Positions 10,032-34,652 of a stretch of DNA of 36,753 nucleotides are shown piece by piece; position 1 is the first letter of the stretch; every line of letters starts with the position of its first letter. A program made the translations under genes and the position numbers. The notes under the pieces were generated by a model. That model did no database searches. It had not been told where the DNA came from and saw only the letters and a list, made by a program, of their open reading frames with translations. Origin of the DNA: Denitrovibrio sp. (lineage in GTDB: Bacteria; Chrysiogenota; Deferribacteres; Deferribacterales; Geovibrionaceae); contig PKTM01000023.1 in NCBI GenBank assembly GCA_002869145.1, forward strand, positions 364-37,116. Reading direction: 5' to 3'.

Positions 10032-11136
10032 AAAACTCTTTCACTTTATTTATTACAATATCCTGCTCATCACTAGTCATATCAAAGTGACACGGCAGGG
10101 TCATCATTTCATCATATATCTTTTCAGTTATGCTCAGCTTAATACCAGTATTATATTTAGTAAGCAAGTGGTTCGGTTTGTAATGAATCCCGCATTCAAT
10201 ATTATTTTTAAGCAGGTGCTCTCTCAGTTCATACCTTTTTTGAGCTTTTATTACGAATATATGAGACAGCACTTCGCTATAGTCAAAATCAAGGAATGTA
10301 ATTTCATTTATACCTGCAAAGGCTTCCAGATATGTTTTTGCTACCTGCTGTCTTTTTGTTTTAAAGCTATCCAGTCTTTCTAACTGAACTATACCAATCG
10401 CAGCCATTATATTGCTCATGTGAAACCTGAAACCCTGATGTTTTACGTCAAAGTCCCAGCTTCTCTGGCCGGAATATCTCTTATCAGTATCTTTTTCTAC
10501 ACCAAGCAACCTTCCATCCTGAACACGCTGGATAAATTCTTTATCTTTAGAAAGTATCGCTCCGCCTTCACCGGAAGTGATATTTTTAATACCGTCAAAA
10601 CTAAAACAGAGGATGTCTCCATGAGTTCATATAAGCTTCCCGTCTCTTTTGCATCCGAATGCCTGAGCGGCGTCTTCTACAACTCGCAGCTTATAATCAG
10701 CCGCCAGTTCATAAACAGAGTTCATCCCTTTAGAACTGCTTGCATAATGCACGGGCATAATAGCCTTAGTGTTCTCGGTAATTTTTTTTCTGGCATCTTC
10801 AGCATCTAAAAATAGAGTATCAGGGTTAACCTCACACGGGACAGGTTTAGCACCTGCTGCCGATATAGCCTGAAATGAAGCAACATAGGTTAAGGAAGGG
10901 ACTAAAACTTCGTCACCTTCTTTTATATCAAGCGCACTGAGTGATAAATGCAGTGCTGAAGTCCCCGTGTTCACACAGACAACGTCCATCTCTGTCTGAA
11001 GGTAATCTTTGATTTTATTTTCAAAGATATTTACTTCTTCACCCATGCCCAAATACTCTTTGGAAAGAACGTTTAATACCGCTTCTTTCTCTGCCTGAGA
11101 TATTGAAGATTTTGAAAGCCGAATTTTACCACTCAT
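10021..11136 (-). pseudogene. DegT/DnrJ/EryC1 sugar aminotransferase interrupted by in-frame TGA
   Basis: One 371-codon gene is split by a single TGA at 10627-10629 (codon 170) with no frameshift. Upstream half: NTGTSALHLSLSA cofactor pocket and VEDAAQAFG. Immediately after the stop the same frame continues THGDILCFSFDGIKNITSGE, which contains the PLP-binding lysine (Lys184) and the rest of the fold. The family normally has Gly where the stop lies (IGTFGD-type loop), so GGA to TGA is the simplest change. The gene should make a CDP-linked aminodideoxyhexose from the product of rfbF, rfbG and the cupin epimerase just upstream. As written the product would be a 169-residue fragment lacking the lysine. 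Confidence 0.85.
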
Positions 11137-13416: not shown

Positions 13417-14433
13417 TTATATGTCTAAACAGTAGCTGTTCAGCCTTTCTTTTATAATTTTTATATCATTCTGGTTTGCAAGATTTTTGTATATACCAAT
13501 AAACTTCTTTGATTCTTCAGGTTTAAAAAACTCACCTTTTTTAGTATGCATACTTTCATCTATGCCTAAAAATTCAAATATCTCATCTTTTGTTTTGTCA
13601 TAATTTAATATGAGATCTTCATATTGTAAAAACATTATATCTTCGTGCGGAGTTTTATCTGTATTTCTTTCTTGTATCTCAAAACGTTTAATAAAATTCT
13701 CCACTTTATTGCCATGTGACATTTTAGAGTATAACTGAGAATGGTTGCAAGCCGTTGTATACATATCTCGTGGATCCCTTTTAACAATTATGCATTTTGC
13801 ATTGTCAAAATACTTAAGTCCCCTTTTTGCATTAAATGGCTCAAAAGCATTATTTGTTACAAGTGTCGTAGCGTCTTCTGTTACTCCGTCATAGCTTGCA
13901 AGTAATTTTATTAGATAATCTTTTGTAAATTCATAAAATTTTTCACCATCGATAAGATGGAACTGGTTTTCAAAGGCTCCCTGTTTATCCCAAAGCCTCT
14001 TTTTTATCTTCCTGTAAAAAGCTTCTAGTTCTCCCATATCAAACAATGGATACGGCCATTCGCAAAGCCAGGTTGAAGCTATCAGGTTATTAATGTATTC
14101 ATCAGAGAGTTTAGAAAATTGATTATTGAATCTTGTCTGATAGTAATCTACATGAAAACTGAAAAGCTTATAAGGAAATCTGCCATATGTTCCGTCTAGC
14201 TTTTTTACAAGTTTTTTAAACCTCACAATCGCACTATTGGATCTAATAATTGACCAGTCTTCTACCAGAGCCTTTTCAAGATCCATAATGCCATCTTGTA
14301 ACCTCAACAGGTTGAACTCCAGGTCCCACTGATGAGCACTAAACCCTTCTATCTCTGCAATAAGCAAATTCAGAGCATGCTTGCCTGAAAACATATATCC
14401 GCTTAAGTCTAAATAGTTATATTGCTTACTCAC
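13417..14433 (-). CDS. Sulfotransferase-family protein
   Basis: About 338 residues from a GTG at 14431-14433, which has GGAG at good spacing; an ATG at 14443-14445 (342 residues) is the alternative. The first strand-loop, LDLSGYMFSGKHAL (about 9-21), matches the 5'-phosphosulfate-binding loop of PAPS-dependent sulfotransferases, and CIIVKRDPRDMYTTAC near 220 matches the 3'-phosphate-binding strand with Arg and the following Arg-Asp. The C-terminal LQYEDLILNYDKT helix and KSKKF-like basic end (EESKKFIGIYKN) also fit. It would place a sulfate on the glycan or on a cassette intermediate. It overlaps the cyclase gene and closes the unusual cassette. The acceptor is unknown. Confidence 0.72.
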   Translation of the reverse strand: MSKQYNYLDLSGYMFSGKHALNLLIAEIEGFSAHQWDLEFNLLRLQDGIMDLEKALVEDWSIIRSNSAIVRFKKLVKKLDGTYGRFPYKLFSFHVDYYQTRFNNQFSKLSDEYINNLIASTWLCEWPYPLFDMGELEAFYRKIKKRLWDKQGAFENQFHLIDGEKFYEFTKDYLIKLLASYDGVTEDATTLVTNNAFEPFNAKRGLKYFDNAKCIIVKRDPRDMYTTACNHSQLYSKMSHGNKVENFIKRFEIQERNTDKTPHEDIMFLQYEDLILNYDKTKDEIFEFLGIDESMHTKKGEFFKPEESKKFIGIYKNLANQNDIKIIKERLNSYCLDI

Positions 14434-15097
14434 CAACGACTCCATAAACACTGCAAGGTAAACCGTCACAGTCTGCAATGCGGATAGGCATTATCGTAAT
14501 CTCAGATAATTTTGTATCTTTGTCAATACTCCTCAAATCCATATCTTCCAGTATTAAAATGGGGTTCTCTGGATTTAAGAATGCTTTGTGAGATATTTTG
14601 CCTAAGTCTCTCCCCTGCCAGCTTGAGATAGAAATAGAATCAAATCCAATAACTCTAATTGAATTAAATTTATTTACTAGATAGTCGTATATTTTAGGAG
14701 AAAAACCGTAGTTGTATTCCCAGAATTTTCTCTCTTCTCTGAAATGGCAAATACCTGTTTTGACTATCAGTATATCGTAGCCTTCGTCTTCTATTTTATC
14801 TAAGATGCCTATCAAATCATCTTCTATGATATAATTTTTTGGTTTAAAATCGATTACCAGCGGTTTAGAGAAAAACCAGAAATCTATGTCATAATCTTCA
14901 ACTGTCTGACCGTTTTTATGGAAGTGATAGGGCAAGTCTATGTGAGTGCTAACGTGCACTGTGGACTCAATTCTTGTGTCATTTGCAATTTTGCCTTCAT
15001 TTATTGATGACGTTTTATAGATACTAAAGTTTTCTGTCCTGCCGCCATAAAGCGGCGTCTTAGTATCTATAATATGCGATAACCATATCTTTTTCAT
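14426..15097 (-). CDS. Cyclase-family (kynurenine-formamidase-like) metal hydrolase
   Basis: 223 residues of the Cyclase fold (Pfam Cyclase, as in KynB). The metal-binding motif is HVSTHIDLPYHF with His48, His52, Asp54 and His58. GFDSISIS and DGLPCSVYGVVGE (C-terminal) are later conserved elements. Family members hydrolyse N-formyl, lactam or lactone-type bonds, or act as isatin hydrolases. Such a gene is out of place in an O-antigen locus, so its substrate probably comes from this cassette, for example a lactone or amide of the keto-acid product. It overlaps the AroB-like gene by 4 bp (ATGA), arguing for a shared pathway. Confidence 0.8.
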   Translation of the reverse strand: MKKIWLSHIIDTKTPLYGGRTENFSIYKTSSINEGKIANDTRIESTVHVSTHIDLPYHFHKNGQTVEDYDIDFWFFSKPLVIDFKPKNYIIEDDLIGILDKIEDEGYDILIVKTGICHFREERKFWEYNYGFSPKIYDYLVNKFNSIRVIGFDSISISSWQGRDLGKISHKAFLNPENPILILEDMDLRSIDKDTKLSEITIMPIRIADCDGLPCSVYGVVGE

Positions 15098-16170
15098 TTC
15101 AATGCTAACACTTCTATTAAGTCTTTTAGTACTTTCTTAAATTCTTCAATTGTTAAATCGTCGATTTTTTCAGCTGCGATATCATCGTTGACAGGGATGA
15201 CTATTGTTAAATTTTTACCTACTCTTTTCTTATCATTTTTCATAGAGTCTAAAAGAATAGTCTCATCAAACTGCTTTTTATCAAGCTCTATAGGTATATT
15301 AGGCAAAAACAGTTTTTCATTTAAAAACAGATACCGCTCTTTACTGATCAGCCCTCTGTTCAACGCGACAATATTTGCGTAAATCATACCTATTGTTACA
15401 GCTATGCCGTGGGGTATTTCGTAATGTGAGGAGTTCTCAAGAGCATGGCCGAAACAATGCCCGTAGTTAAACAGATTTCGTTTGCCTGTATCAAACTCAT
15501 CTTCATCTATATAGGCTTTTTTTACTTCCATAGTTTTCTTAATGGCTTCAAGCCTGTTTTCTTTCCCTTTTACACTCTCTACCAGCTCTACTATGGCATC
15601 GAAATCTTTAGGGTAAGACTCTTTCAACAGGGCAAATTTTATTATTTCGCCTATCCCGCTGTAATAATCTTTTGTACTTAATGTATCTAAGAATTTAGGC
15701 TGTATGTATATTTTGTCAGGCGGGTAAAATCCGCCTAAGATATTTTTATATGTTTCAAAATTCAGCGATGTCTTGCTGCCTATACAGCTGTCTGCCTGTG
15801 CCAGAAATGTAGTAGGTACAAATATCCACTTAATGCCTCTGTATAGTGTAGCTGCTGCAAAGCCGGTTACATCCTGTGTTACCCCGCCGCCAAAAGATAT
15901 AAGGGTAATATTTCTTTTAGCATCCTTTGTCGCCAGAAACTTATATATTTCCTCTACTGATTTCAAAGTTTTTTTCTCTTCAATAGCATCGAATAAAAAC
16001 AGGTCTTCCTCTTTTACATCTGTAAAAAGATCCTTATATAATTCGTATATGTTCTTATCAAGCACAAAAACTTTTTTCTCTATTTTCTTAATATCATCAA
16101 GGAAAGCGAAACTGTCACAAAATTCAACTTCATAATCATGTATATTTGAATGTAACTTTAAAGTACTCAT
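15094..16170 (-). CDS. AroB-like sugar-phosphate cyclase (3-dehydroquinate synthase superfamily)
   Basis: 358 residues. NAD site GGGVTQDVTGF (94-104), phosphate-site PTTFLAQADSCIGSKTSLN (119-137) with Asp127, Lys133 and Asn137. Candidate zinc ligands are Glu175, His238 and His254. Arg231 and Asn235, in RNLFNYGHCFGH, correspond with identical spacing to the Arg/Asn pair that binds the substrate carboxylate in dehydroquinate synthase and is replaced in 2-epi-5-epi-valiolone synthases. The enzyme should therefore cyclise a carboxylated, DAHP-like sugar phosphate. Its location between an SDR and a hydrolase (4 bp overlaps both sides) argues against being the housekeeping aroB. Product unknown. 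Confidence 0.8.
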   Translation of the reverse strand: MSTLKLHSNIHDYEVEFCDSFAFLDDIKKIEKKVFVLDKNIYELYKDLFTDVKEEDLFLFDAIEEKKTLKSVEEIYKFLATKDAKRNITLISFGGGVTQDVTGFAAATLYRGIKWIFVPTTFLAQADSCIGSKTSLNFETYKNILGGFYPPDKIYIQPKFLDTLSTKDYYSGIGEIIKFALLKESYPKDFDAIVELVESVKGKENRLEAIKKTMEVKKAYIDEDEFDTGKRNLFNYGHCFGHALENSSHYEIPHGIAVTIGMIYANIVALNRGLISKERYLFLNEKLFLPNIPIELDKKQFDETILLDSMKNDKKRVGKNLTIVIPVNDDIAAEKIDDLTIEEFKKVLKDLIEVLALK

Positions 16171-16823
16171 GCAGTAAACCCACCATCAACCACTAATGTT
16201 TGACCTGTAATATATGTGTTATCATCGCCGACCAAAAACTTTATACAGTTTGCTATCTCTTTAGGCTCAGCCATCCTTTTAAGAGGTATCTGTCCAAAGA
16301 CAGCTTCCATCTCGCTTTCAGAGAGTGACTGCATTGTCAGCTCAGTCGCAGTGAAACCCGGACATACAGCATTGATTAAAATATTATATTCACCAAGCTC
16401 TCTTGCCAAAGCTTTTGTCTGACCGATAATTCCAAATTTTGTACCGCTGTAAAGAGTGCGTTTCTCTTTGCTTCTCACACCCCAAATGGAGCTGATATTT
16501 ACTATCTTTCCAAATTTGTTTGCCTTCATCCCTTTGACACAATACTTTGTCAGTTTTAAAGGCGCCACTAAGTTTATATTATTAATTTTCTGAATATCTT
16601 CATCTAGAATACTGTCTATATCTTTGATAATATTAATACCAGCGTTATTAATAAGTATATCAAAAGATTTGCCGTCTTCGAAATACCTGTCAATAGATGA
16701 GATGTCGCATAAATCCAGCTCTTCTCTTTTAGGTATGACAACATCATACGTATCTATTAATTCGTCATATATCGCTTTGCCTATACCTCTGCTGCCGCCA
16801 GTTAACAATACACGTCTTTTCAT
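16167..16823 (-). CDS. Classical SDR oxidoreductase
   Basis: 218 residues. Dinucleotide loop TGGSRGIG (8-15), NNAG (59-62), catalytic Ser near 111-112, Tyr125 and Lys129 in YSGTK, and the FabG-like end NTYITGQTLVVDGGFTA. It should reduce a ketone or oxidise an alcohol with NAD(P)(H). It is coupled by 4 bp overlaps to both the Gfo/Idh dehydrogenase and the AroB-like cyclase, so it probably works on the carbocycle or its precursor. The FabG resemblance reflects the fold and does not show a role in fatty-acid synthesis. Confidence 0.85.
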   Translation of the reverse strand: MKRRVLLTGGSRGIGKAIYDELIDTYDVVIPKREELDLCDISSIDRYFEDGKSFDILINNAGINIIKDIDSILDEDIQKINNINLVAPLKLTKYCVKGMKANKFGKIVNISSIWGVRSKEKRTLYSGTKFGIIGQTKALARELGEYNILINAVCPGFTATELTMQSLSESEMEAVFGQIPLKRMAEPKEIANCIKFLVGDDNTYITGQTLVVDGGFTA

Positions 16824-17827
16824 TTGTAAAATCCAGACTCCTCGTATATAGCTTCAACCAGCTGCATAACTTTTAATGCATCGTAACTGTTTCCGTTATA
16901 TACAGCTTTTTTCTCTAAAATACAGTCTACAAATTCCTCAAGCTCAAGTTTCCATGATTCATCTGTATCAAAATATATTTTTTCTTCCCTTGGTTTGCCC
17001 ATAGCAAATGTTTCGTTTTCAAATTGTCTTTTTGCTATCACCAAAGTCTCATCGCCATAACTTCTTGTGCTCGATAAGATTCCATCAAGATTTACATAAC
17101 CGTTTTCAAAACTCATCTCGAGTAAAAACTTGTGTCTCCACTGTGTTGCACATGAATGTATGGTAGCCATCAAACCATCCTGTGTCTGCATCATAGCGAA
17201 AGCGTTATCTTCTACTTTAATATCCCAGTAGTTTGTATTAACCATACTTTTTATATTTACAAAATCGCCAGCGAAAAATCTCATCAGATCAAGCATATGT
17301 ATCCCCTGATCCAATAAAATACCTCCACCGGATTCTTCTTTATCATTTCTCCAGTTGTCGGCAAACTTATTACCGCCTGCTTTGCCATATACGCCCCTCA
17401 TCCACAGGAGCCTGCCAAACATATTATTTTCGATTAGTTTTTTTGCTTCTATAACAGAGTAGTGGTATCTATGGTTAAAGCCATATTTAAGAACCAGACC
17501 TTTTTCGCTTTCTACTGCTCTTACTTCTTCCACTTCTTTAGAGGTTCTTGCTGGAGGTTTTTCGCAAAACACATGCAATCCAGCGTTTAAAGCCCTGATT
17601 GAATACTCAGGCGCAGACTTGTTAAATGTGCAAATTACAACTGCGTCTAAATCTTTTATTTTAAAGATATCGTCGACCGTTGAACATTTGGTAATATCAT
17701 TAAATTCGTCAAGCTGCTAACTATCAATATCATAGGCTGCTATAAGTTGAGTATGTTTGTTCTCTTTAATCGTCTTGGCTCTTGTTTTACCAATCTTACC
17801 CATTCCTATAATAGCAATATTAATCAT
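16820..17827 (-). pseudogene. Gfo/Idh/MocA oxidoreductase interrupted by in-frame TAG
   Basis: A 335-codon frame from ATG at 17825-17827 to TGA at 16820, with one TAG at 17717-17719 (codon 37) and no frameshift. Before the stop: MINIAIIGMGKIGKTRA, a complete Rossmann opening. After it: CTFNKSAPEYSIRAL, the EKP signature (89-91) and GGGILLDQGIHMLDL with the usual Asp and His. GAG to TAG would restore a Glu at DIDS-E-QLDE, a common residue there. The family oxidises or reduces sugars and cyclitols with NAD(P). The ATG overlaps the SIS gene stop by one base (TAATG). A rescue start such as TTG at 17578 would lack the nucleotide-binding strand. Confidence 0.85.
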
Positions 17828-18402
17828 TATTTTGTGCCCAGCGCTATAAAATAAGAGTAAATAACATGGTCTAAAATCATATGCATGTCTTCTACTAAGC
17901 CATATTCGCCTTTAGGTGTATCAACATGAAAACATATGTCACTTTTTTGCCTTAACTCACCACCATCAAAACCGGTACACCCTACAACTTTACTGCCAAC
18001 TGTTTTTGCATAATCAATAGCTTTTGTAATATTAGGCGAGTTACCGCTGCATGATATAGCGATTATAATATCTTCCGGCTTTAAAACTTCTAACAGCTGC
18101 ATATAGAAAATATTATCATAACCTATGTCATTAGAAATAGCTGTGATTACCGGGCTGTTGTCAGCTAAAGACACAACATTAAATGTTCGTATATTTCTTC
18201 TTTTCAGACCTACATTTAAGTCATTAGCCATATGAGAAGCTGTACCAGAGCTGCCGCCGTTGCCTAGCACATAAATGACACCCTTTTTCTTTTGAGTCTC
18301 TTCTAATAAATCAATAATTTCGCTAATAGCATTAACATCAACATTATCTAATAGTTTTTTTAACTTAGATGTATAACTTAATATAAAATCTTTCTTTTCC
18401 AT
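17827..18402 (-). CDS. SIS-domain isomerase, GmhA-like (sedoheptulose-7-phosphate isomerase family)
   Basis: 191 residues, the length of GmhA. GNGGSSGTASH (47-57) is the phosphate-binding turn; SCSGNSPN (117-124) is the second SIS loop. At the E. coli GmhA zinc positions (His, Glu, Gln, His) this protein has His57, Asp61, Glu171 and His179, so two ligands are conservatively changed. GmhA turns sedoheptulose 7-phosphate into D-glycero-D-manno-heptose 7-phosphate. No heptose kinase/adenylyltransferase (HldE) or GmhB is nearby, so here the product may feed another route. A ribosome site AAAGGATG lies 5 bases before the ATG. Confidence 0.83.
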   Translation of the reverse strand: MEKKDFILSYTSKLKKLLDNVDVNAISEIIDLLEETQKKKGVIYVLGNGGSSGTASHMANDLNVGLKRRNIRTFNVVSLADNSPVITAISNDIGYDNIFYMQLLEVLKPEDIIIAISCSGNSPNITKAIDYAKTVGSKVVGCTGFDGGELRQKSDICFHVDTPKGEYGLVEDMHMILDHVIYSYFIALGTK

Positions 18403-18405
18403 TTT

Positions 18406-19308
18406 TCATCCTTTTTGTGCAATTATTGTTGCAAATGAGCTTAGTAAATTTTTTTGTATAAAAACTCTAAAATCCTCTAAAGCATTCTCTTTATCAAAAC
18501 TTGCAAGATAATTCAAAAACCTAGGGATATTAGAAGATTTACTGTTCAAAATATTATCAACATCCAAAGTCCCGGGAGTATTAAGTCCTTTGATATTAAA
18601 ACCGATAGTATTTAACATTATTTTAATTCCATCTACAGACAATAAATTTTGGTGCTCTAATGGATAAAGCTTAGTCTCTTCCCATAGTGTCAAAATATCA
18701 ATACCGCTGCCGACTCTTGATGATATGTACAGATAACCATTACTATTGAGAGATTTATGCACTGTTGTCATAAGTTGTTTCAGGTCGAGCACTTTCTCCA
18801 TATAATGATCCATAATTATGAAATCATAACTACCTGTTATCGAACAGTTATCATCAATAATATCAAATTCTGTGTCAAAATTACTTAATGCAACCTGGAA
18901 CACTTTTGCCTTACTGCCCATGTACGCAACTTTTAATTTTGTATTCTTATTTAAAAATCTTGAAGCAGTAAGTTCTAAGTTGGAAGACTTATTCCTTGCT
19001 AATTCTTCAAGATACTTTTTGTATTTTTCACCAGAATAAATATTATCTTCCAGCTCTTTCGAATATTTTATATAATCATCTAACTCTATTGTGTTTTGTA
19101 TGTATAGACTTTTACAATTACAGCATTCGACATAATGAAATTTATATTTATCAAAGGCATGCTTATATTCATCGCTGCTGCAGGCTGGGCAGATATTTCT
19201 AAGTTTTGTCTTACCGCTAAATTCTTTATGCAGACGATGAATAGTTTCGTCAAGCTCTTTAGGTTTTATGTCATTGACATCAAATACGGTTTCATTTACT
19301 AAGCTCAT
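18406..19308 (-). CDS. Zinc-finger methyltransferase-like protein with degenerate SAM site
   Basis: 300 residues. An N-terminal zinc-ribbon-like CPAC (40-43) and CNC cluster (62-65) is followed by a Rossmann domain. It is a paralogue of the gene at 20237-21214: shared N-terminal KPKELDETIHRL/RPQELFDELLRL, shared ILTLWEETKLYPLEHQNLLS/IRVLWEESKPVSPPMHLNFL, shared C-terminal NLLSSFATII/NLLSSHMMIV. But SAM motif I, IDIGGGYGTF in the paralogue, is VAYMGSKAKVF here and lacks the glycines. It may be inactive, a partner subunit or a binding protein. A 1 bp TAATG overlap joins it to the dehydrogenase. Confidence 0.72.
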   Translation of the reverse strand: MSLVNETVFDVNDIKPKELDETIHRLHKEFSGKTKLRNICPACSSDEYKHAFDKYKFHYVECCNCKSLYIQNTIELDDYIKYSKELEDNIYSGEKYKKYLEELARNKSSNLELTASRFLNKNTKLKVAYMGSKAKVFQVALSNFDTEFDIIDDNCSITGSYDFIIMDHYMEKVLDLKQLMTTVHKSLNSNGYLYISSRVGSGIDILTLWEETKLYPLEHQNLLSVDGIKIMLNTIGFNIKGLNTPGTLDVDNILNSKSSNIPRFLNYLASFDKENALEDFRVFIQKNLLSSFATIIAQKG

Positions 19309-20234
19309 TATATATCCTTGAAAAATTCCTTTACATGCATTACAGCACTCTTTCCCATAGCCTCAACTGCCTCTTTTGCATTACCACCGACATGAGGTGT
19401 TGCAACAAGATTAGGCAGTGATAGAAATTCTCTATCAACTGGAGGTTCTACATTATAAACATCTATCGCACCACCACAAATGATACCATCTTGCAGTGCT
19501 TTTTTAAAATCATCTTCATTTATTATTCCACCTCTTGCAGTATTTATGATGAAAGTACTCTCTTTCATAAGATTCATCTCTTTTAAAGTGATTAAATCTC
19601 TTGTATCGTCTGTCAAAGGTGTATGTATTGTTATAATATCAGCATATCTATATATTTTCTCTTTTGCAACCTCTTCAAGCCCATTTTGCAGGTAATAATC
19701 ACTCTTGTCTATTATGTCATTTACCAATATCCTGCAATTAAATGGTTTCAAAAGCCTCACTAGCTCTTTCCCTATATGTCCAACGCCGATAATGCCTATA
19801 GTTTTACCTGAAAGCTGCAATCCGCCTGCCTTGTTCCATGTCAAATCTTTTAATTGATTTGATGTAACATACAAGTTTCTTATCAGCATCAGCATAAAGC
19901 CTAATGCCATCTCCGCCACAGAAGTTTTATTAACTCCACCAGTCCAGCCCACTTTGATGTTAAATTGTTTACAATCATCAAGATTTATGTTGTCCAGCCC
20001 CACACCATACTTCGCTATTATCTTTAAATCTTTACACTCTTTTAAAACACTCTCGTCAATTTTATCTAACCCGACGATTGCTCCGTCAGCGTCTTTCAAC
20101 GCTGAGATCAATTCCTCTTTTGTATAGCGTCCTGAGGTGTTTAACACTATGTTGGAAGTAAACTTTTTCAGTTCATTTACTAAAAATTCATTTTTGGAAA
20201 AAGCATTGGCAGTTACGACTATCTTTGGATCCAT
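19308..20234 (-). CDS. D-2-hydroxyacid dehydrogenase (phosphoglycerate-dehydrogenase-like)
   Basis: 308 residues. NAD loop GVGHIG (150-155) with the following Asp near 173, and the catalytic triad Arg234 (NTARGG), Glu263 (NVEPP) and His281 (TPHVGG). There is no ACT or other regulatory domain, unlike serine-pathway SerA. It should interconvert a 2-keto acid and a D-2-hydroxy acid, which fits a cassette that also has a pyruvate-type aldolase. It lies between the two paralogous methyltransferase-like genes, 2 bp after one and overlapping the other by 1 bp. AAGG precedes the ATG. Confidence 0.87.
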   Translation of the reverse strand: MDPKIVVTANAFSKNEFLVNELKKFTSNIVLNTSGRYTKEELISALKDADGAIVGLDKIDESVLKECKDLKIIAKYGVGLDNINLDDCKQFNIKVGWTGGVNKTSVAEMALGFMLMLIRNLYVTSNQLKDLTWNKAGGLQLSGKTIGIIGVGHIGKELVRLLKPFNCRILVNDIIDKSDYYLQNGLEEVAKEKIYRYADIITIHTPLTDDTRDLITLKEMNLMKESTFIINTARGGIINEDDFKKALQDGIICGGAIDVYNVEPPVDREFLSLPNLVATPHVGGNAKEAVEAMGKSAVMHVKEFFKDI

Positions 20235-20236
20235 TT

Positions 20237-21214
20237 CTAAACCTTCTTACATACTATCATCATGTGAGAACTGAGAAGATTATCACTCAGAAAAAGCTGC
20301 ATTTTCTGCCTCTCCTCATCGGTGGAATACTCTAAATAATCTTTCCAGAACCTGTCTTTAATTTTATCTTTATTATTATTCATGATATCCACATCGAGCT
20401 TGCCGGGTGTAGTAACCTCCAGCACCTCAAATCCAGTACTATTGAGTAATAATTCTATTGATTTTGGATTTAGAAAGTTTAGATGCATCGGCGGGCTTAC
20501 CGGCTTAGATTCTTCCCATAAAACTCGTATATCAACGCCCATACCGCTTAAGGTAGTAAAAATGAAAACGTCACCGCTGCTCATTACATCATTTAGAGTT
20601 TCTAAAAATTCTCTTGTAGTATGCAAATGCTCAAACAATTCAAAACTTACGAATGTCTTCTCATCTATTGGCAGATCTTTTTCTGAAATATCTTCAAGAA
20701 ATTTTACAACAACGCTAAGACCTTTTTCCTTACATGCTTCTGAAAGATACTGGGAAGGCTCAATTATTAAGTGTTCCATATCTGATATTTTCAAAAACTC
20801 TTCCATAAAAGTTCCATATCCACCACCAATGTCAATTAATTTTTTGGTATTTGGTGAAAACTGTTTGATCTTATCTGATATCAATTTTGCTTTTGGCTTC
20901 CAAAGCATCTCTCTTCTGTTTTGTTCAGTAGCTTTATAAAATGTTGTCGCCCAATATTTTGTAGACTCCGAATCAGTATAGTAAGCATCGAAATACTCTC
21001 TTTTTGGCCTTGGCGAAACATATAGTGTTTTGCATTCGGGGCACTCATCAAAAGAGAACGAATTTTTACTAAAACTGCTGACCCCTTGAGTATCACATGC
21101 AGGGCACAAAAGCACTTCTTTCTCACTATTTGTAAAATACTTATCAATGTCTAACTTGTTTAACCTTAAAAGCTCATCAAAAAGCTCCTGAGGCCTTATA
21201 TCATTTTCTTTCAT
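20237..21214 (-). CDS. Class I SAM methyltransferase with N-terminal zinc ribbon
   Basis: 325 residues from ATG at 21212-21214; an upstream TTG-type extension would run into the acetyltransferase gene and is not supported. Cys37/Cys40 and Cys58/Cys61 form a CPAC...CPEC zinc ribbon. SAM motif I is IDIGGGYGTF (127-136), followed by an acidic residue in LIIEPSQYL and a SFELFEHLHTTREFL segment typical of the Methyltransf_23 group. It should methylate a sugar or acid intermediate of the cassette. Ends in TAG exactly where its paralogue at 18406 ends, so that stop is natural. Confidence 0.82.
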   Translation of the reverse strand: MKENDIRPQELFDELLRLNKLDIDKYFTNSEKEVLLCPACDTQGVSSFSKNSFSFDECPECKTLYVSPRPKREYFDAYYTDSESTKYWATTFYKATEQNRREMLWKPKAKLISDKIKQFSPNTKKLIDIGGGYGTFMEEFLKISDMEHLIIEPSQYLSEACKEKGLSVVVKFLEDISEKDLPIDEKTFVSFELFEHLHTTREFLETLNDVMSSGDVFIFTTLSGMGVDIRVLWEESKPVSPPMHLNFLNPKSIELLLNSTGFEVLEVTTPGKLDVDIMNNNKDKIKDRFWKDYLEYSTDEERQKMQLFLSDNLLSSHMMIVCKKV

Positions 21215-21224
21215 AGTTACACTT

Positions 21225-21677
21225 TTAAATCTTTTTAATAACTTTAGCTGGTATACCCGCAACAAATGAATAGTCTGGAACATCTTTTGTAACTACTGCA
21301 CCAGCAGCAACAACACAGTGCTTACCAATAGTAACGCCACCCATAATCATAGCTCCTGTTGCTATCCAGGTAGCATCACCAATAACAATATCTCTTCCTT
21401 GAGGAACATCATTTCTCAAGATGTCTATATCCTTTGACTCATAATTATGTTTACCTGTAATTACCATACAGTTGTGCCCAAAGATAACACCTTCTCCGAG
21501 GGTTATCGTTCCGCTCATTGTGTTAAACAAAGTATTAACAAATGGATACTCTTCGTCATATTTACCATTTAAGATGAGTCTATCGTTCGGCCCTGAAACA
21601 TGGTGAATATAATGGTTAACAAACCCGAGCTTTGTTAAGGTTTTTGTTAAAAACTTAGCGATCTTGTTCTTAATCAT
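21225..21677 (-). CDS. Left-handed beta-helix acyltransferase (WbbJ/maltose-acetyltransferase type)
   Basis: 150 residues. Hexapeptide turns are visible as ITLGEGVIFGHNCMV, IVIGDATWIATGAMIMGG and VTIGKHCVVAAGAVV, with the catalytic-type His in GKHNY near 76. The end SFVAGIPAKVIKKI is typical of acetyltransferases acting on sugars. It likely O- or N-acetylates a residue using acetyl-CoA. It is joined to the cytidylyltransferase by a 4 bp overlap, and an AGGGGG ribosome site lies upstream. The substrate is unknown. Confidence 0.87.
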   Translation of the reverse strand: MIKNKIAKFLTKTLTKLGFVNHYIHHVSGPNDRLILNGKYDEEYPFVNTLFNTMSGTITLGEGVIFGHNCMVITGKHNYESKDIDILRNDVPQGRDIVIGDATWIATGAMIMGGVTIGKHCVVAAGAVVTKDVPDYSFVAGIPAKVIKKI

Positions 21678-22444
21678 AAATATAGCCCCCTAAGTTCATC
21701 TGTTTTAAATATCTCTTCTACGACTGCTAAATCTTCCACAACATCTACAGCTTTTACATTGTGTTTTGTAGGTATCATTTTGACTTTCATGCCGTTTTCC
21801 AATATTCTCATCATATCAACAGATTCGATAATCTCTAACGGTGTAGGCTCCATTTCATTATATTCAAGTAAAAAGTCTCTTGTAAAAGGGATAATTGGAA
21901 CTTGTTTAAACATGGGCAGCTTACCTTTATACTTCTTTTTCGATGGGATCGGCTCTCTACTGAAGTACATTGCATTCCAATCTTTATCCACAACAACCTT
22001 AACTTCATTTGGGTTTTCAAAATCATGCTGAGAAGTTATTTCGCCAGTAAGGTTTGTTATTTTTATACTGCTGTCATCTAGCATAGGCTGTACAGCTTCA
22101 TCGATCATATCCGGATGAGTCAAAGGCTCGTCGCCTTGCACCAAAACCATAATGTCACACTTGTCTGCAGGGTTTGCTGCTTCAATTTTAAGCATAGCCT
22201 CTGCACACCTATCACTTGCTCTCTCATGAGTATCTTTTGTCATAACAGCTTTTGCGCCGATAGATTCTGCATAGTCATATATCTCTTTATCACACGTTGC
22301 TATATAAACTTCATCAAGCGTTTTACTCATTTTTACTCTTTTATACACGTGTCCTATCATTGGCATGCCTAGTATTTTTATCATAGGTTTACCTGGAAAC
22401 CTGCTTGAACTCATTCTTGCAGGAATTATCGCTATTGCTTTCAT
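21674..22444 (-). CDS. KdsB-like CTP:2-keto-acid-sugar cytidylyltransferase
   Basis: 256 residues of the CMP-KDO synthetase/acylneuraminate cytidylyltransferase group. CTP-binding opening IPARMSSSRFPGKPM (7-21), VQGDEPL near 105, NPNEVKVVVD near 146, YFSREPIPS and ESVDMMRILENG, then VDVVEDL. KdsB itself reads similarly but with a different C-terminal sugar-binding segment. No kdsA, kdsC or kdsD is nearby, whereas a pyruvate-type aldolase is directly upstream (4 bp overlap). I infer that it activates a non-KDO 2-keto-3-deoxy acid as the CMP derivative. AGGAG precedes the ATG. Confidence 0.83.
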   Translation of the reverse strand: MKAIAIIPARMSSSRFPGKPMIKILGMPMIGHVYKRVKMSKTLDEVYIATCDKEIYDYAESIGAKAVMTKDTHERASDRCAEAMLKIEAANPADKCDIMVLVQGDEPLTHPDMIDEAVQPMLDDSSIKITNLTGEITSQHDFENPNEVKVVVDKDWNAMYFSREPIPSKKKYKGKLPMFKQVPIIPFTRDFLLEYNEMEPTPLEIIESVDMMRILENGMKVKMIPTKHNVKAVDVVEDLAVVEEIFKTDELRGLYL

Positions 22445-23202
22445 TTATTTTCTCCTAAGATTTTTCTCATTCCATCTCTGGCATTATCTCCCAAAAAGAA
22501 AAAATCAACGCTATATGCTAAAAATGTACAGCCTTCATCTATCCGTTCCTGCAGCTTCTGCGGATTTGATTCTATCACATGAAAGCCGGAGGGCACATTT
22601 TCCTCTTTACAAACCCTTAACACTTTTGCTATTCCCTCTTTTACTTCTTTTCTATGGTATTCACCAGGATAGCCCATGCTGCCGGATAAGTAGTAAGGTC
22701 CGATAATTACACCGTCGATACCATCAGTAGTTATTATTTCTTTTATATTATCAACTGCTTCAAAGTGCTCTATCTGAGCTATTATAACAAGCTCATCTTT
22801 TACCAACTTTTTGTATTCGTCAAATCCTGTCCCATATTTTTGCGCACGGAATAAGCCTACACCCCTGTTGCCCACAGGCGGATATTTAGCATAGCTAATA
22901 GCTTCCTGGGCATCCTCTTTCGATTTTATCATGGGAACAACTATGCCGTCTGCCCCCATATCAAGGACTTTTTTTATGATAACCTCTTCATTTTTACTGA
23001 CTCTTACTAAAGCCTTCATCCCATGTGACTGAATAGTAGCTATTAGATTGTGTGCTGTATTTAAATCTATTGATGTATGTTCTAAGTCCACAACAAGCCA
23101 GTCAAAACCGGCACTTGCCATTACATCTACTACTGCTGTATGTCCGATAGTAATCCAGCTGCCGATAGATAATTCGTTATTTTTTAATTTCTTTTTAAGC
23201 AA
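22441..23202 (-). CDS. HpcH/HpaI-family pyruvate aldolase with substituted metal ligand
   Basis: About 253 residues from TTG at 23200-23202, which has GAGG nine bases upstream, gives the family's usual N-terminus (LKKKLKNNELSIGSW) and overlaps the ABC gene by 8 bp; a TTG at 23217 would add five residues. Expected residues His42 (DLEHTS), Arg67 (ALVRV) and Glu145 (QIEH) are present. The second metal ligand, Asp in the GPxDLS motif, is Tyr171 (GPYYLSGSMG). The family cleaves or forms 2-keto-3-deoxy acids from pyruvate (or hydroxypyruvate) and an aldehyde using a divalent metal. With Tyr at the ligand position, activity is doubtful. GAC to TAC would explain it. Confidence 0.85.
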   Translation of the reverse strand: MLKKKLKNNELSIGSWITIGHTAVVDVMASAGFDWLVVDLEHTSIDLNTAHNLIATIQSHGMKALVRVSKNEEVIIKKVLDMGADGIVVPMIKSKEDAQEAISYAKYPPVGNRGVGLFRAQKYGTGFDEYKKLVKDELVIIAQIEHFEAVDNIKEIITTDGIDGVIIGPYYLSGSMGYPGEYHRKEVKEGIAKVLRVCKEENVPSGFHVIESNPQKLQERIDEGCTFLAYSVDFFFLGDNARDGMRKILGENK

Positions 23203-24901
23203 TTTTCCCGTCCTCAACTTTTATAATTTTATCGAATTTAGCAGCAAGATGCTCTTTATGTATAATCGCAATAATTGTCTTGTTTTTGTATTTTTCAAGC
23301 AGTCGGTCTAAGATTTTCTCTTCTATTTCCTCATGAAGGGATGAAGTGGCCTCATCCAAAAAGAGTATCTCCCTTTCCTGATATAGTGATCTTGCAAAGG
23401 CTAGCCGTTGCATTTGTCCACCACTGAATCCAGATATCTCATCTCCAACCTTTGCTTCCATTCCGCCTTTTGCCATAACTACGTCATATACAAAAGCATC
23501 TTCTAAAACCTCTTTAAAAAGCTGCTCATTATATTCTTTTCCGAATGTAACATTCTCTTTTACATCAGATTCAAAAAGTACAACTTTCTGAGGGACAAAA
23601 GAAGTGCTCTGTCTCCAGTTGATAACATTATTTTCATTAATTTCTATTCCATCTATAATAAATTTTCCAGAATTCGGAAGATGCAGACCGATTAAGATGT
23701 CCATTAAAGTACTTTTACCAGATCCGCTCTCTCCGATAATCGCAACCTTGTCTCCATTTTTAATATCTATATCTATGCCAGACAAACTCTTTTTATCACT
23801 TTCAGGATAAGCAAACGTAACATCTTTAAGCTGAATTAAATCATTAAAGACAATAGGATCTCCTATGCTTTTTTGCTCAATTTTATAGTTGATCTCTGTG
23901 TGCACCATGTCTAATGTTTTCTTATACATATTAACAATGTTTGCACCCTGCAATATTTTTGACAAAGAAGGGAGCATCCTGAACAGAGCCAAAGCATAAG
24001 CACTTACAACCACCAGCAGTTCACCATTATCTTCATACTTAAGTTTAATAAACATGAATATTATTATCATCATTGCGATAATAATAAACTCCAGAATAAG
24101 TCTTGGCAGTTCTGCCCAGAAAAGCATGTCTACTCTGGCTTTCTTATAATGATTTGTGATACTCGTAAGGTTTTTTTCTATGTACTCTCCATCCAGACCT
24201 TTTATAAATTTAAAATTAGAAAATGTACTTTTAATGAATTTCATATAATCGGTTACGGCTTCAATTCTCTCTTCGCCCATAATAACTAATTTTCTTTTAA
24301 GTAACTTTTTGTACAAATAAATAATAAATGCAAACATAACCGACACACTGATAGTCAGCATCCAGTCAACATAAAACATATATCCATAAAGCAAACCAAT
24401 AATTACTGTATGAATAATGATGTAAATAATATTTGAAATCATTAATGATAAATTGTCAGATTCAACAACAAGTATTTGATTTATTTCAGCCGTGTTTCTT
24501 TTAGCAAAATCTCGATAGTAGTAATTCATATAATTTTCAAAAAGCTTTTTTGATACATCAATATAAAGATTACTTGCCAGTTTTGCCATATATCTAGCGT
24601 TGATTAATGATACAAATAATTTAACGACATAAAAAACAAAAACCGTGCTTGTGATTATTAATATGAAAGCAGAAGTGTTGCTATTTGAAAGCGAATCAAA
24701 AACATACCTAAGTAAACTATTAGATTCTCTTATAGAATCATTAGTAAAGACCTGAATCATTAACACTAGCAAGGTTAGTCCGATCAGCTCAAACAATCCT
24801 ACTATAAAACCTAAAATAAGGACAAAACGTATATCTTTTTTATCTTTATTGCTTATAAGGAAATAAAATTTGTTTTTAAATTGCTTAATATTCTTAATCA
24901 T
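23195..24901 (-). CDS. ABC-type lipid-linked-oligosaccharide flippase (PglK/MsbA-like)
   Basis: 568 residues from ATG at 24899-24901; a TTG seven codons earlier is the longer alternative. An N-terminal six-helix exporter domain (segments near 25-50, 63-85, 135-160, 160-180, 255-275, 285-300) is fused to an ATPase domain. Walker A GESGSGKST, Q-loop FVPQ, signature FSGGQMQRLAFARSL, Walker B EILFLDEATSSL and the H-loop His in IAIIHK are all intact. The fusion and size match PglK/WlaB and MsbA half-transporters that flip undecaprenyl-linked glycans or lipid A. No Wzx is visible in the window, so this is the best candidate for repeat-unit export. 8 bp overlap with the upstream transferase. Confidence 0.88.
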   Translation of the reverse strand: MIKNIKQFKNKFYFLISNKDKKDIRFVLILGFIVGLFELIGLTLLVLMIQVFTNDSIRESNSLLRYVFDSLSNSNTSAFILIITSTVFVFYVVKLFVSLINARYMAKLASNLYIDVSKKLFENYMNYYYRDFAKRNTAEINQILVVESDNLSLMISNIIYIIIHTVIIGLLYGYMFYVDWMLTISVSVMFAFIIYLYKKLLKRKLVIMGEERIEAVTDYMKFIKSTFSNFKFIKGLDGEYIEKNLTSITNHYKKARVDMLFWAELPRLILEFIIIAMMIIIFMFIKLKYEDNGELLVVVSAYALALFRMLPSLSKILQGANIVNMYKKTLDMVHTEINYKIEQKSIGDPIVFNDLIQLKDVTFAYPESDKKSLSGIDIDIKNGDKVAIIGESGSGKSTLMDILIGLHLPNSGKFIIDGIEINENNVINWRQSTSFVPQKVVLFESDVKENVTFGKEYNEQLFKEVLEDAFVYDVVMAKGGMEAKVGDEISGFSGGQMQRLAFARSLYQEREILFLDEATSSLHEEIEEKILDRLLEKYKNKTIIAIIHKEHLAAKFDKIIKVEDGKIA

Positions 24902-26135: not shown

Positions 26136-27222
26136 TTATGACCTTAATTATTTTCTCAGTATCCTCAGGGCTCTGAACACCACTGATAGGCAAACTCAAA
26201 ACTTCCTCATGGATCTGCTCACTTATAGCATAACTATCATTATTCCACTCTTTATAAGCTCTTTGCTTATGAGGCGGTATAGGATAGTGTATCAATGTGT
26301 GGATATCTTTATCACTTAAATATTTTTGCAGTTTATCTCTGTTTTTTGTTCTTATCACAAATAAATGCCAGACATGATTATTCCATTCTCTTACAGTCGG
26401 CAGAATCAGATTGTCATTCTTTATCTTTTCCAGATAAGAGTTTGCAACATCTCTTCTTTTTTCTATTTCCTCATCCAAATGATTTAATTTTACACTTAAA
26501 ATCGCAGCCTGTAATGGGTCCAATCGGCTATTCATGCCTTTATAAATATTCTCATATTTCTTTTGGCTTCCATAGTTACCTAACACCTTTACAGTATTGG
26601 CTAACTCTTCATCATTAGTAGTAACTGCTCCGCCATCACCCAAAGCGCCTAGATTTTTACCTGTGTAAAAACTAAAACCGCTGGCATCACCCAAGTTGCC
26701 GCTTCTTTTATTTCCAAAAAATGCACCATGTGACTGAGCCGAATCTTCTACAACTTTCAGATTATATTTTTCAGCAATCTAGTTTATTTTGTCCATCTGG
26801 CAAGTTTGTCCATATAGATGTACTGGAAGTATGGCTCTTGTTTTTGACGTAATCTTTTCTTCAATTTTTTCAGGGTCTATCAGGTAAGTATTAATATCAG
26901 GTTCAACCAGAACCGGGACAAGATCACTATCAGAGATTGCTAAGATTGAGGCAATATATGTATTAGACGGTACTATTACTTCATCACCGTCTGCCATAAG
27001 TCCAATCTCTTTATATGCCCGAAGTACCAAAATAAGTGCATCTAAGCCATTTGCGACACCTATAGCGTATTTCACACCACAATAATCAGCAAACTCTTGC
27101 TCAAATTTTTCGCATTCTGCACCCTGAATATACCAGCCGCTATCAATGACTCTTGTGCAGGCTTCTATCAATTCAGCTCTGTATTGATTATTTATTTTTT
27201 TTAAATCTAAAAATGGTATCAT
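26125..27222 (-). pseudogene. FdtB/QdtB-like dTDP-3-keto-6-deoxyhexose aminotransferase interrupted by in-frame TAG
   Basis: A 365-codon DegT-family gene with one TAG at 26779-26781 (codon 148) and no frameshift. Before it: VANGLDALILVLRAY, YIASILAISD and LPVHLYGQTCQMDKIN. After it the same frame gives [19 protein letters not shown] and then [18 protein letters not shown], with PLP lysine Lys189. That FYxGKNLGAxGDGG form is typical of FdtB/QdtB. Homologues usually have Glu at the interrupted site, so GAG to TAG fits. It would aminate the 3-keto sugar made by RmlA, RmlB and the FdtA-like isomerase. It is coupled to the acyltransferase by 4 bp. As written, only a lysine-less fragment is made. 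Confidence 0.87.
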
Positions 27223-31754: not shown

Positions 31755-34652
31755 TTAAAATAGATTAGCTGCAACGCCGCCTGTGACAGCAATTTGCATT
31801 AGAACCTGTGTTATGTCTTTAATGTTTCTCAGCCATGCAATTCTTCTGTAATTATCAGGAACAATTAGGTTGTCCCCTGGCTGCAACATCTTAGAATCAG
31901 TGAAATAACTGACTTCCCATCTATCATTTTCACTTGACCAGCTTATAGCCCTGTCTTCTACGTGCTGTACAGTGCCATTAGCTTTCATTATATAAATGTT
32001 ACTCTTATCAGCGTTATTAAGGTATCCGCCTGCAATCTTTATATAATCTTTCCATTCCATCTTCTCATTATATACAAAGGCGCCTTGATTAAGTACTGCA
32101 CCAGAAACAGTTACATAGTCCTGCCTCTTAGGCACATAAACGCTGTCTCCATTTTCAAGTTCAATGTCATTGACACTGCCTTTAAGCAATCTAGGATGAC
32201 TCATAGCTATTACTAGCCTTCCGTCAGCCTTAACCTTCTTAAGAGATTCAATAAAGCTGTCTTTAGTTTTCATAAAAAGTTCTGCTGAGCTGATTGTCGC
32301 ATCAGAAGCTGCTGTCATGGCTTGTATATTAGCATTTGTAACAAGGTCTCTCTCAAGTCTTGAAATCATAGACTCTATCATCTTCTGTTTTTCCAACCTG
32401 ACTTTTTCACGCTTAAACTCTGTTCCATAAAGGTAAGCATAGTCAGTAAAACCACCAGCCCTCTTAATTATCGTAGACAGTTTTTCACCTTTTTTGATCG
32501 GGTATACACCAGGAAAAACAAATTCTCCGCTTAAATTCACATATTCTGATTTATTGTATTCTGATATATTTTTAATAACGACACTATCATTCGGCATCAT
32601 TTTAAAACTGTTAAAATCTTTACTTTTAACTATTATATATTCCTGTTTAATGTCATATCCGTCTATAGTCTTCCTGATAATCTCTACTTCGTCTCTGTAA
32701 GCGCTGTCGATATAGCCACCGGCAATTATTATAGCGTCAGCGATAGTCATCCCTTCGCCGTACACGTAAGTGCCTTTGTCATACACAGCACCATCTATAT
32801 TTACATATTTCCTAGTATTCTTCTTTGAAAGCTTGACCTCTATCTTATCATTTTTATTAAGCAGCACATCAGCTTTTCTGTCATTCAGGCCGTTGATGGA
32901 TATGTTATATATCTCTCTTTCTCCATATGGGGAGGTCTTATAATGCAGCAATGTATAACTATGTCCGTAATCTTCTTTGTTAATTGCTTTTTTAAGTACA
33001 TCACTAATCATCATTCCATTGTTAAAAAAGTATTCGCCTGGGTTGAAAACATCACCAGAGACTTCCACATAATCCTTACTTATACTTTCGTAAATGCTAT
33101 GTACTATTATATACCCTTGTGTAGGGGCCTCTGTTGCCATAGACTCGTTAACAGCGATAACCTTTGAAGCGAGATTACCATTTTGGTATGTTACTATTTC
33201 AATATTGTCTATATTTGAAGCAGATGTGAAACCACCAGCTTTTGTTATCATTTTGTAGACTGAAGCCTCTTTTTCCGCCTTAACGTTTCCAGGTTTCGCG
33301 ACTTCACCGGTAACCATAATCTCAATATTGTTTAATATTTCAAACTTATTAACAACAACAATTTTGTCATAAGGTTCAAGCACTAAGTTTTCATCTGAAG
33401 ATGGGTTTTGAAATATTTTATTAAGACTGAACTGAATGAGATTGATTTCACTGGATTTTGCATCTTTTCTAACGATATAAGAAGAATCCACGTCAGTATT
33501 TTCAAGTATTTTTGTGCTGTCGCTTATTATATCTGATATCCGTAACCCTTCTTTGTATTCATATTGTCCTGGGAAATAAACATTGCCTGTCAGATGTATC
33601 GCGTTAGAAGGTTCTGTGCTGGCACTATAGACTTGTATCTCATCGCCATCAGCAAGAACAAAACCAGCAGCATTTTTATTTGAAAGATTAAGGTTTTTTA
33701 CCTCAACCCTGACTTTATCCTTATTAAGCCTGGATAAAATGATATCGTTAAATCTAGCATCGGGCTTCAGACCGCCTGCTAGTTCAAGAGCGTCTTTAAG
33801 AGTAGTTCCTTTTTTGATATCATAAAAAGCTTCCTCTTTAACAGCACCGGTTATTTTGACTCTCAGGCTGCTTCGCGGAACAAAAATAACATCATTAGGA
33901 AGTAACTTATTAATTTTAGTTTTATAAACGCCATTATTTGCTAACTCATAATAGTCTACAGTATCAATAACTTTACCATTTCTGAGTATAGCAACATCAC
34001 GTATATTTGCATTTTTCTCAACGCCTCCAGCGCTCATTATTGCCTGAGTCATACTGGAAAAAGCATTAAGAACATAATAGCCAGGTGAACTTACACTTCC
34101 CTACACAAGCACTTTAACAGTTTTAGTGTTATCTATCAGAAAGCTTACATTAACCCCTTCCATAGGAGCTATTACCTGCTGAACCATTCGTTTTGATTCT
34201 TCATAAGTCTTGCCACCGAGAGTAAATTTGCCAATTACATCAGAAAATATGTTTCCATCCCTGTCAACACTGAGATTCTCGGCTTTATTTGTTCTACCCC
34301 AAAATTGGAGAGTTATAGTATCTCCAGAACCGATTACGTATTCATCTGGCACATTAACATTTTTATCTGTTACATAGTTTGCCTTGTTCTCAAATAGATC
34401 ATGGCCATATATTTTAAGTCCATCTTCCATATAAAGCTTAGCTTCCATATCAGGTTTATCTTCATCAATAGTCTTGTCATTTTCCTCAACATCAGTCTCT
34501 AAATTTTTATCGTCAGTTTTTGCAGCATCTTTTTTGTCTAAATTTTTGACCTGTTCCAGATATTCCTGCTCAATTTTTGTCGTGAAGTCTACTGCGACAG
34601 CATTAAAAACAAGGGATATTGTGAACAGAAAAGAAATTATAATTTTGTACAT
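31755..34652 (-). pseudogene. Large SLBB-repeat polysaccharide export protein (Wza-like) interrupted by in-frame TAG
   Basis: A 965-codon frame from ATG at 34650-34652 with one TAG at 34101-34103 (codon 184). Signal peptide 1-20 (ending AVA). A Lys/Asp/Glu-rich linker leads to the Poly_export domain (DEYVIGSGDTITLQFWGR, near 103-120). Then come about eight SLBB units, each opening with a V-x-V-x-G-x-V-x-x-P-G-like line; the stop falls in the first one (KVLV-stop-GSVSSPGYY). Wza has only two to three such units and about 380 residues. It should form the outer-membrane/periplasmic exit channel. The downstream 765-codon frame alone lacks a signal peptide. Confidence 0.85.

Follow-up and report, generated by a model that had tools for sequence, protein, structure and literature searches.

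The protein that we call B, encoded in a 36,753-nucleotide stretch of Denitrovibrio sp. DNA (the whole stretch analysed, hereafter the window), belongs, as judged by alignments and predicted structure, to an old zinc-ribbon family that appears to descend from a sugar C-methyltransferase-like ancestor and to have lost the SAM-binding half of its Rossmann fold. The family is under purifying selection. By co-localization and co-inheritance, B works in a pathway with a Gfo/Idh/MocA oxidoreductase and a SIS-domain isomerase, usually also with a 2-hydroxyacid dehydrogenase; the gene content points to a surface sugar as the product. We hold with high confidence the combination of family membership, selection and independence from A, the intact methyltransferase encoded nearby. 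It is possible, on balance doubtful, that a sugar C-methyltransferase lost its cofactor site a single time and gave rise to a SAM-free keto-sugar enolase, epimerase or isomerase, which would have spread over a dozen or more phyla as a dedicated step of one undescribed Gfo/Idh-SIS surface-sugar pathway. The features of the window are listed below.

22441–23217, minus strand: HpcH/HpaI-type aldolase, A sub-module
21674–22444, minus strand: KdsB-like CMP-sugar cytidylyltransferase, A sub-module (NF009905, 313.5 bits, cut-off 255)
21225–21677, minus strand: hexapeptide acyltransferase, between A and KdsB
20237–21214, minus strand: A, intact zinc-ribbon class I methyltransferase (325 aa)
20807–20836, minus strand: motif I of A, IDIGGGYGTF
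19308–20234, minus strand: D-2-hydroxyacid (phosphoglycerate-like) dehydrogenase (DH), B module (60/80 module loci)
18406–19308, minus strand: B, SAM-loop-less methyltransferase-fold protein of the degenerate family (300 aa)
19114–19191, minus strand: zinc-ribbon cysteines of B, C40-x2-C43 ... C62-x2-C65
18898–18930, minus strand: residues 127–137 of B, VAYMGSKAKVF, in the place of motif I, with no GxGxG
18652–18657, minus strand: E218-H219 of B, opposite TcaB9 E224-H225 (hhalign and census)
18562–18579, minus strand: TPGTLD of B, most strongly conserved of the family's motifs (invariant P, G and D)
17827–18402, minus strand: SIS-domain isomerase, GmhA-like (58/80 module loci)
16820–17827, minus strand: Gfo/Idh/MocA oxidoreductase, a constant companion of B-type genes, here with an in-frame TAG (17717–17719)
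16167–16823, minus strand: SDR oxidoreductase
15094–16170, minus strand: AroB-related putative sugar phosphate phospholyase (TIGR04425, 433.7 bits, cut-off 400)

The genes follow the order HpcH-KdsB-acyltransferase-A, then DH-B-SIS-Gfo-SDR-AroB-like. The window thus holds two sub-modules adjoining in one gene run, and the dehydrogenase is part of that of B. The start assigned to A, MKENDIRP, is one that A-type proteins conserve. The run of overlapping genes continues downstream, past the AroB-like gene, with genes for a sulfotransferase and for a cyclase resembling kynurenine formamidase (PF04199) at 13417–15097.

The degenerate family

Homology between A and B extends over the full length of both (27% identity, 96.7 bits, BLASTP E 2e-27); their Smith-Waterman score is 267, compared with a mean of 38 and a maximum of 74 for 500 shuffles of B. 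Common to both are the motifs CPxC...CxxC, which by sequence marks a predicted four-Cys N-terminal zinc-binding domain, NDI[RK]P[QK]EL, LWEE[ST]K, TPGxLDVD and NLLSS. The SAM loop reads IDIGGGYGTF in A, and VAYMGSKAKVF stands at the same place in B. The positions, the shared motifs and the confinement of the loop to A are as the earlier note described them. Both proteins score above the cut-off of the Pfam model Methyltransf_23; the match of A covers nearly the whole profile, and that of B covers positions 79–161 of 164, without motif I. The acidic residue at the end of beta-2 (SAM ribose) is E152 in A, falls into a gap in B and is replaced by mixed residues across the degenerate family. Among methyltransferases of the PDB, the best matches of the B profile begin past motif I, whereas the A profile aligns with its own best matches from motif I on. 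Both proteins are predicted to adopt a class I methyltransferase fold with an N-terminal zinc ribbon (pLDDT 92 for A; pLDDT 88 and pTM 0.88 for B, modelled by AlphaFold2 from an alignment that excluded plasmid and Rhodobacteraceae rows). The helix after beta-2 in the A model is missing from the B model, and the B segment there is shortened.

The first relatives of B came from plasmid records of Paenibacillus cellulosilyticus and Leisingera aquaemixtae. Both lack the glycine loop, and the former is closer to B (1e-19) than to A (4e-9). A single-protein scan of genome contigs with B gave no match, nor did viral contigs when scanned with A or with the alignments. The Gfo/Idh neighbour was then taken as the anchor, as it is better conserved and an alignment of A with B-type proteins proved too diverged to serve as a search pattern; a scan of about 85,000 species genomes yielded 80 loci, 48 of which carry a B-like gene. 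One B-type protein (L021:9936-11018) comes from a tiny phylum, represented by two genomes, and a radical-SAM-like gene lies there between the B-type gene and Gfo/Idh.

The motif census covered 56 sequences, 48 degenerate and 8 A-type. Motif I, [DE]xGxGxG, is present in all 8 A-type proteins and in none of the 48 degenerate ones; the glycine loop is also absent from 15 relatives found later by a B-profile search, and hence from all 63. The earlier note regarded orthologues of B with an intact loop as the sign of decay; there are none among these 63 relatives. The loss is real and selected, and it is not decay.

In the tree of the full alignment, the 48 degenerate proteins form one clade (support 100/99), which spans about a dozen or more phylum-level groups. 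We considered whether the split from A-type proteins is an artefact of the lost motif and rejected this, since the same split persists as a single branch (100/97, 100% of bootstraps) in a tree without the Rossmann-core columns. B of the window groups with a protein of Candidatus Aminicenantes (L058); the partners of A in the tree are A-type proteins from Oscillospiraceae and Treponema. The trees thus place A and B in two old lineages, and the description of one as a duplicated copy does not hold for a recent local event.

Purifying selection is seen in dN/dS values of 0.12–0.15 between relatives at 64–77% protein identity, where dS is unsaturated. The zinc-ribbon residues C40, C43 and C62 are invariant across 47 family members, and C65 is found in 44 of them; in the B subgroup (n=30), three zinc-ribbon cysteines are present in all rows and C61 in 27. 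Also kept in the family are GFD, LQ...SS and STPGxLD, the last with invariant P, G and D. The region of motif I is less conserved (mean information 1.53 bits) than the C-terminal third (2.2–2.7 bits). An Asp at the end of beta-1 is kept in 42/48 degenerate proteins and is missing in B of the window, which also lacks some positions kept by most of the family (W110, E241, Q281).

Members of the family match only generic methyltransferase and zinc-ribbon models in Pfam, with E-values up to 0.01–0.1. As a result of automatic annotation they pass as class I SAM-dependent methyltransferases, as does the Leisingera copy, though the SAM site is gone family-wide. Methyltransferase-fold proteins without a SAM function are already known in other settings. 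Our literature search found no description of the B family, of TIGR04425 or of this gene set.

Gene neighbourhoods and inheritance

In 45/45 loci the degenerate gene shares its strand with Gfo/Idh and lies at a distance of one or two genes from it, and distances between degenerate proteins track those between their Gfo partners (r = 0.88; 0/2000 permutations). The bias of a Gfo anchor was controlled by whole-genome searches with the B profile alone. These gave hits in none of 298 other genomes in the family of L040, in 3 of 395 in the family of L054 (two already known) and in 17 of 68 in the phylum of L072. Sufficient flank was available at 13 of the new loci; all 13 have Gfo next door, and 12 have SIS. 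The family is therefore sporadic, with a constant context. Mapped on the Gfo tree, the degenerate gene switches between present and absent 6 times, compared with 25 expected by shuffling. About 30 of the 80 module loci have Gfo, often with SIS and DH, and no B-type protein in the stretch read; thus, the step of B is not essential to the pathway.

Two alternative gene sets recur around this core, either an inositol-monophosphatase-like gene (IMPase) with a nucleotidyltransferase, or SDR with the AroB-like phospholyase. The AroB-like gene occurs in 0/35 loci with IMPase and in 18/45 without it (P = 5e-6; P-values for locus associations ignore shared ancestry). The two sets are perhaps two ways to dispose of phosphate. 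The AroB-related type is seen in the window and in L042, L046, L062, L063, L089, L093, L094, L102, L105, L111 and L112; the gene is usually accompanied by SDR, and together with IMPase it is found in 0/80 loci. Both plasmid loci have Gfo/Idh, SIS, IMPase, nucleotidyltransferase and 2-hydroxyacid dehydrogenase genes as neighbours, and the stretch read at each holds no second methyltransferase-like gene of this family. A further variant (L067, L077, L083, L095) has the order Gfo-DH-unknown protein of 226–256 aa-HpcH-SIS, with no methyltransferase-like gene of this family. The unknown protein differs in length between loci; that of L067 is reminiscent of a sugar-phosphate lactonase (GGRTPK).

A-type genes follow genes of their own. 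The HpcH aldolase and KdsB accompany A in 5/5 loci, compared with 17/75 and 13/75 other loci, respectively. There is no association between A-type and degenerate proteins, the latter being present in 2/5 loci with A and 46/75 without it (P = 0.38). Genome-wide searches gave A-type scores (E below 1e-140) in 4/37 genomes, two of which (L036, L042) have A-type and B together and two (L111, L112) have A-type without B; the other 33 have the degenerate protein or more distant methyltransferases only. No A-type protein was found in 33/35 B-bearing genomes, many of which are drafts, so that absence is not absolute. Judging by this co-occurrence, A is a separate methyltransferase of the HpcH-KdsB sub-module, and it is presumably active. 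The earlier note had proposed that A and B flank a dehydrogenase as the catalytic and non-catalytic subunits of one enzyme. The locus and genome counts speak against such a heteromer, and the dehydrogenase turns out to be a frequent member of the B module, not something bracketed by a pair.

Several genes of the window carry a single in-frame stop, without frameshift, at 17717–17719, 10627–10629, 26779–26781 and 34101–34103 (minus strand). The four genes, otherwise full-length, encode Gfo/Idh, two DegT-type aminotransferases and a Wza-like export protein; three stops are TAG and one is TGA. The genome of the window has no close second copy of Gfo/Idh. Because this neighbour of B carries a stop codon, the pathway may be off in this genome. 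On other contigs of the same genome, single in-frame stops occur at L150:3642, L150:12083 and L159:18998, in genes for ABC-transporter-like, CoA-transferase-like and penicillin-binding-protein-like products, at places where Glu is presumably expected for these families. These stops could reflect a base-change bias in sequencing (oxidative damage) or a mutator strain.

Possible roles of B

In sugar C-methyltransferases, the proton next to a ketone is removed before methyl transfer, and Gfo/Idh enzymes produce such ketones. The mechanism that we favour for B is SAM-free acid-base chemistry: B may have preserved the substrate side along with E218-H219 as the acid/base position, while lacking a methyl donor. 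Gfo/Idh would then make a keto-sugar that B enolises, thereby epimerising or isomerising it. Since B seems to retain the deprotonation half of the reaction and Gfo/Idh makes ketones, B could enolise a keto-sugar, a step that we propose only tentatively. The whole chain, from an ancient SAM-less family through a Gfo/Idh-SIS pathway independent of A to enolisation as the mechanism, we put somewhat below an even chance.

The candidate residues come from a profile alignment (hhalign), in which Tyr222, Glu224 and His225 of TcaB9 lie opposite Tyr215, Glu218 and His219 of B; this equivalence is a distant alignment, not one of superposed coordinates, and the TcaB9 chain used carries E224Q. We take Glu224-His225 to be the active-site pair of this sugar 3-C-methyltransferase, whose solved structures include, by their titles, the mutants Y222F, E224Q and H225N. 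The position of Glu224 is acidic in 44/48 degenerate proteins (26 Glu, 18 Asp) and in 0/8 A-type proteins, which have His, Asn, Met or Ile there. The residue after the acid in the degenerate family is His in 29 and Arg in 15 (n=48); the 15 members with Arg argue against one universal general base.

The main rival accounts for the gene data almost equally well: B-type proteins would have no catalysis of their own and would instead scaffold, stabilise or allosterically regulate Gfo/Idh, SIS or the dehydrogenase. The lost cofactor site, the constant neighbourhood, the strong co-divergence with Gfo, and the modules without a B-type protein are all consistent with such a role, to which we give a serious though minor share of the probability. 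However, the best conserved residues are polar or belong to motifs (STPGxLD, GFD, LQ...SS, the acid before His/Arg) and look more like a putative ligand site than a surface patch.

It is rather improbable that B remains a methyltransferase which holds SAM, or a nucleotide resembling it, in a modified manner. The modelled fold and the beta-1 Asp of most family members would suit such binding, but neither the glycines of motif I nor the acidic beta-2 residue is conserved in the family, and B of the window lacks the Asp as well and is shortened after beta-2. A heteromeric methyltransferase of A and B is very improbable. The two genes are close in one run of touching genes and coexist in L036 and L042; against this stand the genomes with B and no A-type protein, the lack of association over 80 loci and the separation of the two lineages before they spread over phyla, and we rejected it on the association test and the genome counts. 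That B is a decaying duplicate of A, as the in-frame stops in several window genes might suggest, is hardly credible, as the frame of B is intact, its 63 relatives share the loss and purifying selection is measured in relatives, though no close relative carries the copy of the window; recent duplication with decay was rejected by the trees, dN/dS and the motif census.

If B is an enzyme, as in the enolisation proposal, it would represent a methyltransferase becoming a different enzyme by keeping its deprotonation half-reaction; if not, it would be a clear ancient pseudoenzyme in glycan synthesis. In addition, B-type proteins mark a widespread sugar pathway on which our literature search gave no paper.

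Comparison with known systems

The closest known systems are the zinc-binding sugar 3-C-methyltransferases MtmC, KijD1 and TcaB9. MtmC is the top PDB match for both models (Foldseek E 1.9e-14 for A and 1.5e-9 for B), and TcaB9 and KijD1 are also prominent among the matches of A. Like A and B, these enzymes combine an N-terminal Cys zinc-binding domain with a class I fold. Their motif I is kept in A, whereas B is without the SAM loop, and in B-type proteins the place aligned with TcaB9 E224/H225 holds an acid plus His/Arg. Identity to A and B is only 10–13% with TM about 0.4–0.6, A and B are about 80–100 residues shorter, and both match generic models, not the Pfam domains specific to the sugar 3-C-methyltransferase family.

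The window resembles heteromers of the METTL3-METTL14 type in that an intact and a SAM-deficient homologue are encoded together, but in most genomes A and B do not co-occur. SpnF, in which the methyltransferase fold is reused for a non-methylating reaction, is a generic fold match of both models; SpnF retains the binding of SAM/SAH, whereas the SAM loop is gone from the B family. Finally, the window resembles the TIGR04425 phospholyase cassettes: the product of 15094–16170 scores above the curated cut-off, and SIS, Gfo and DH recur with its relatives.
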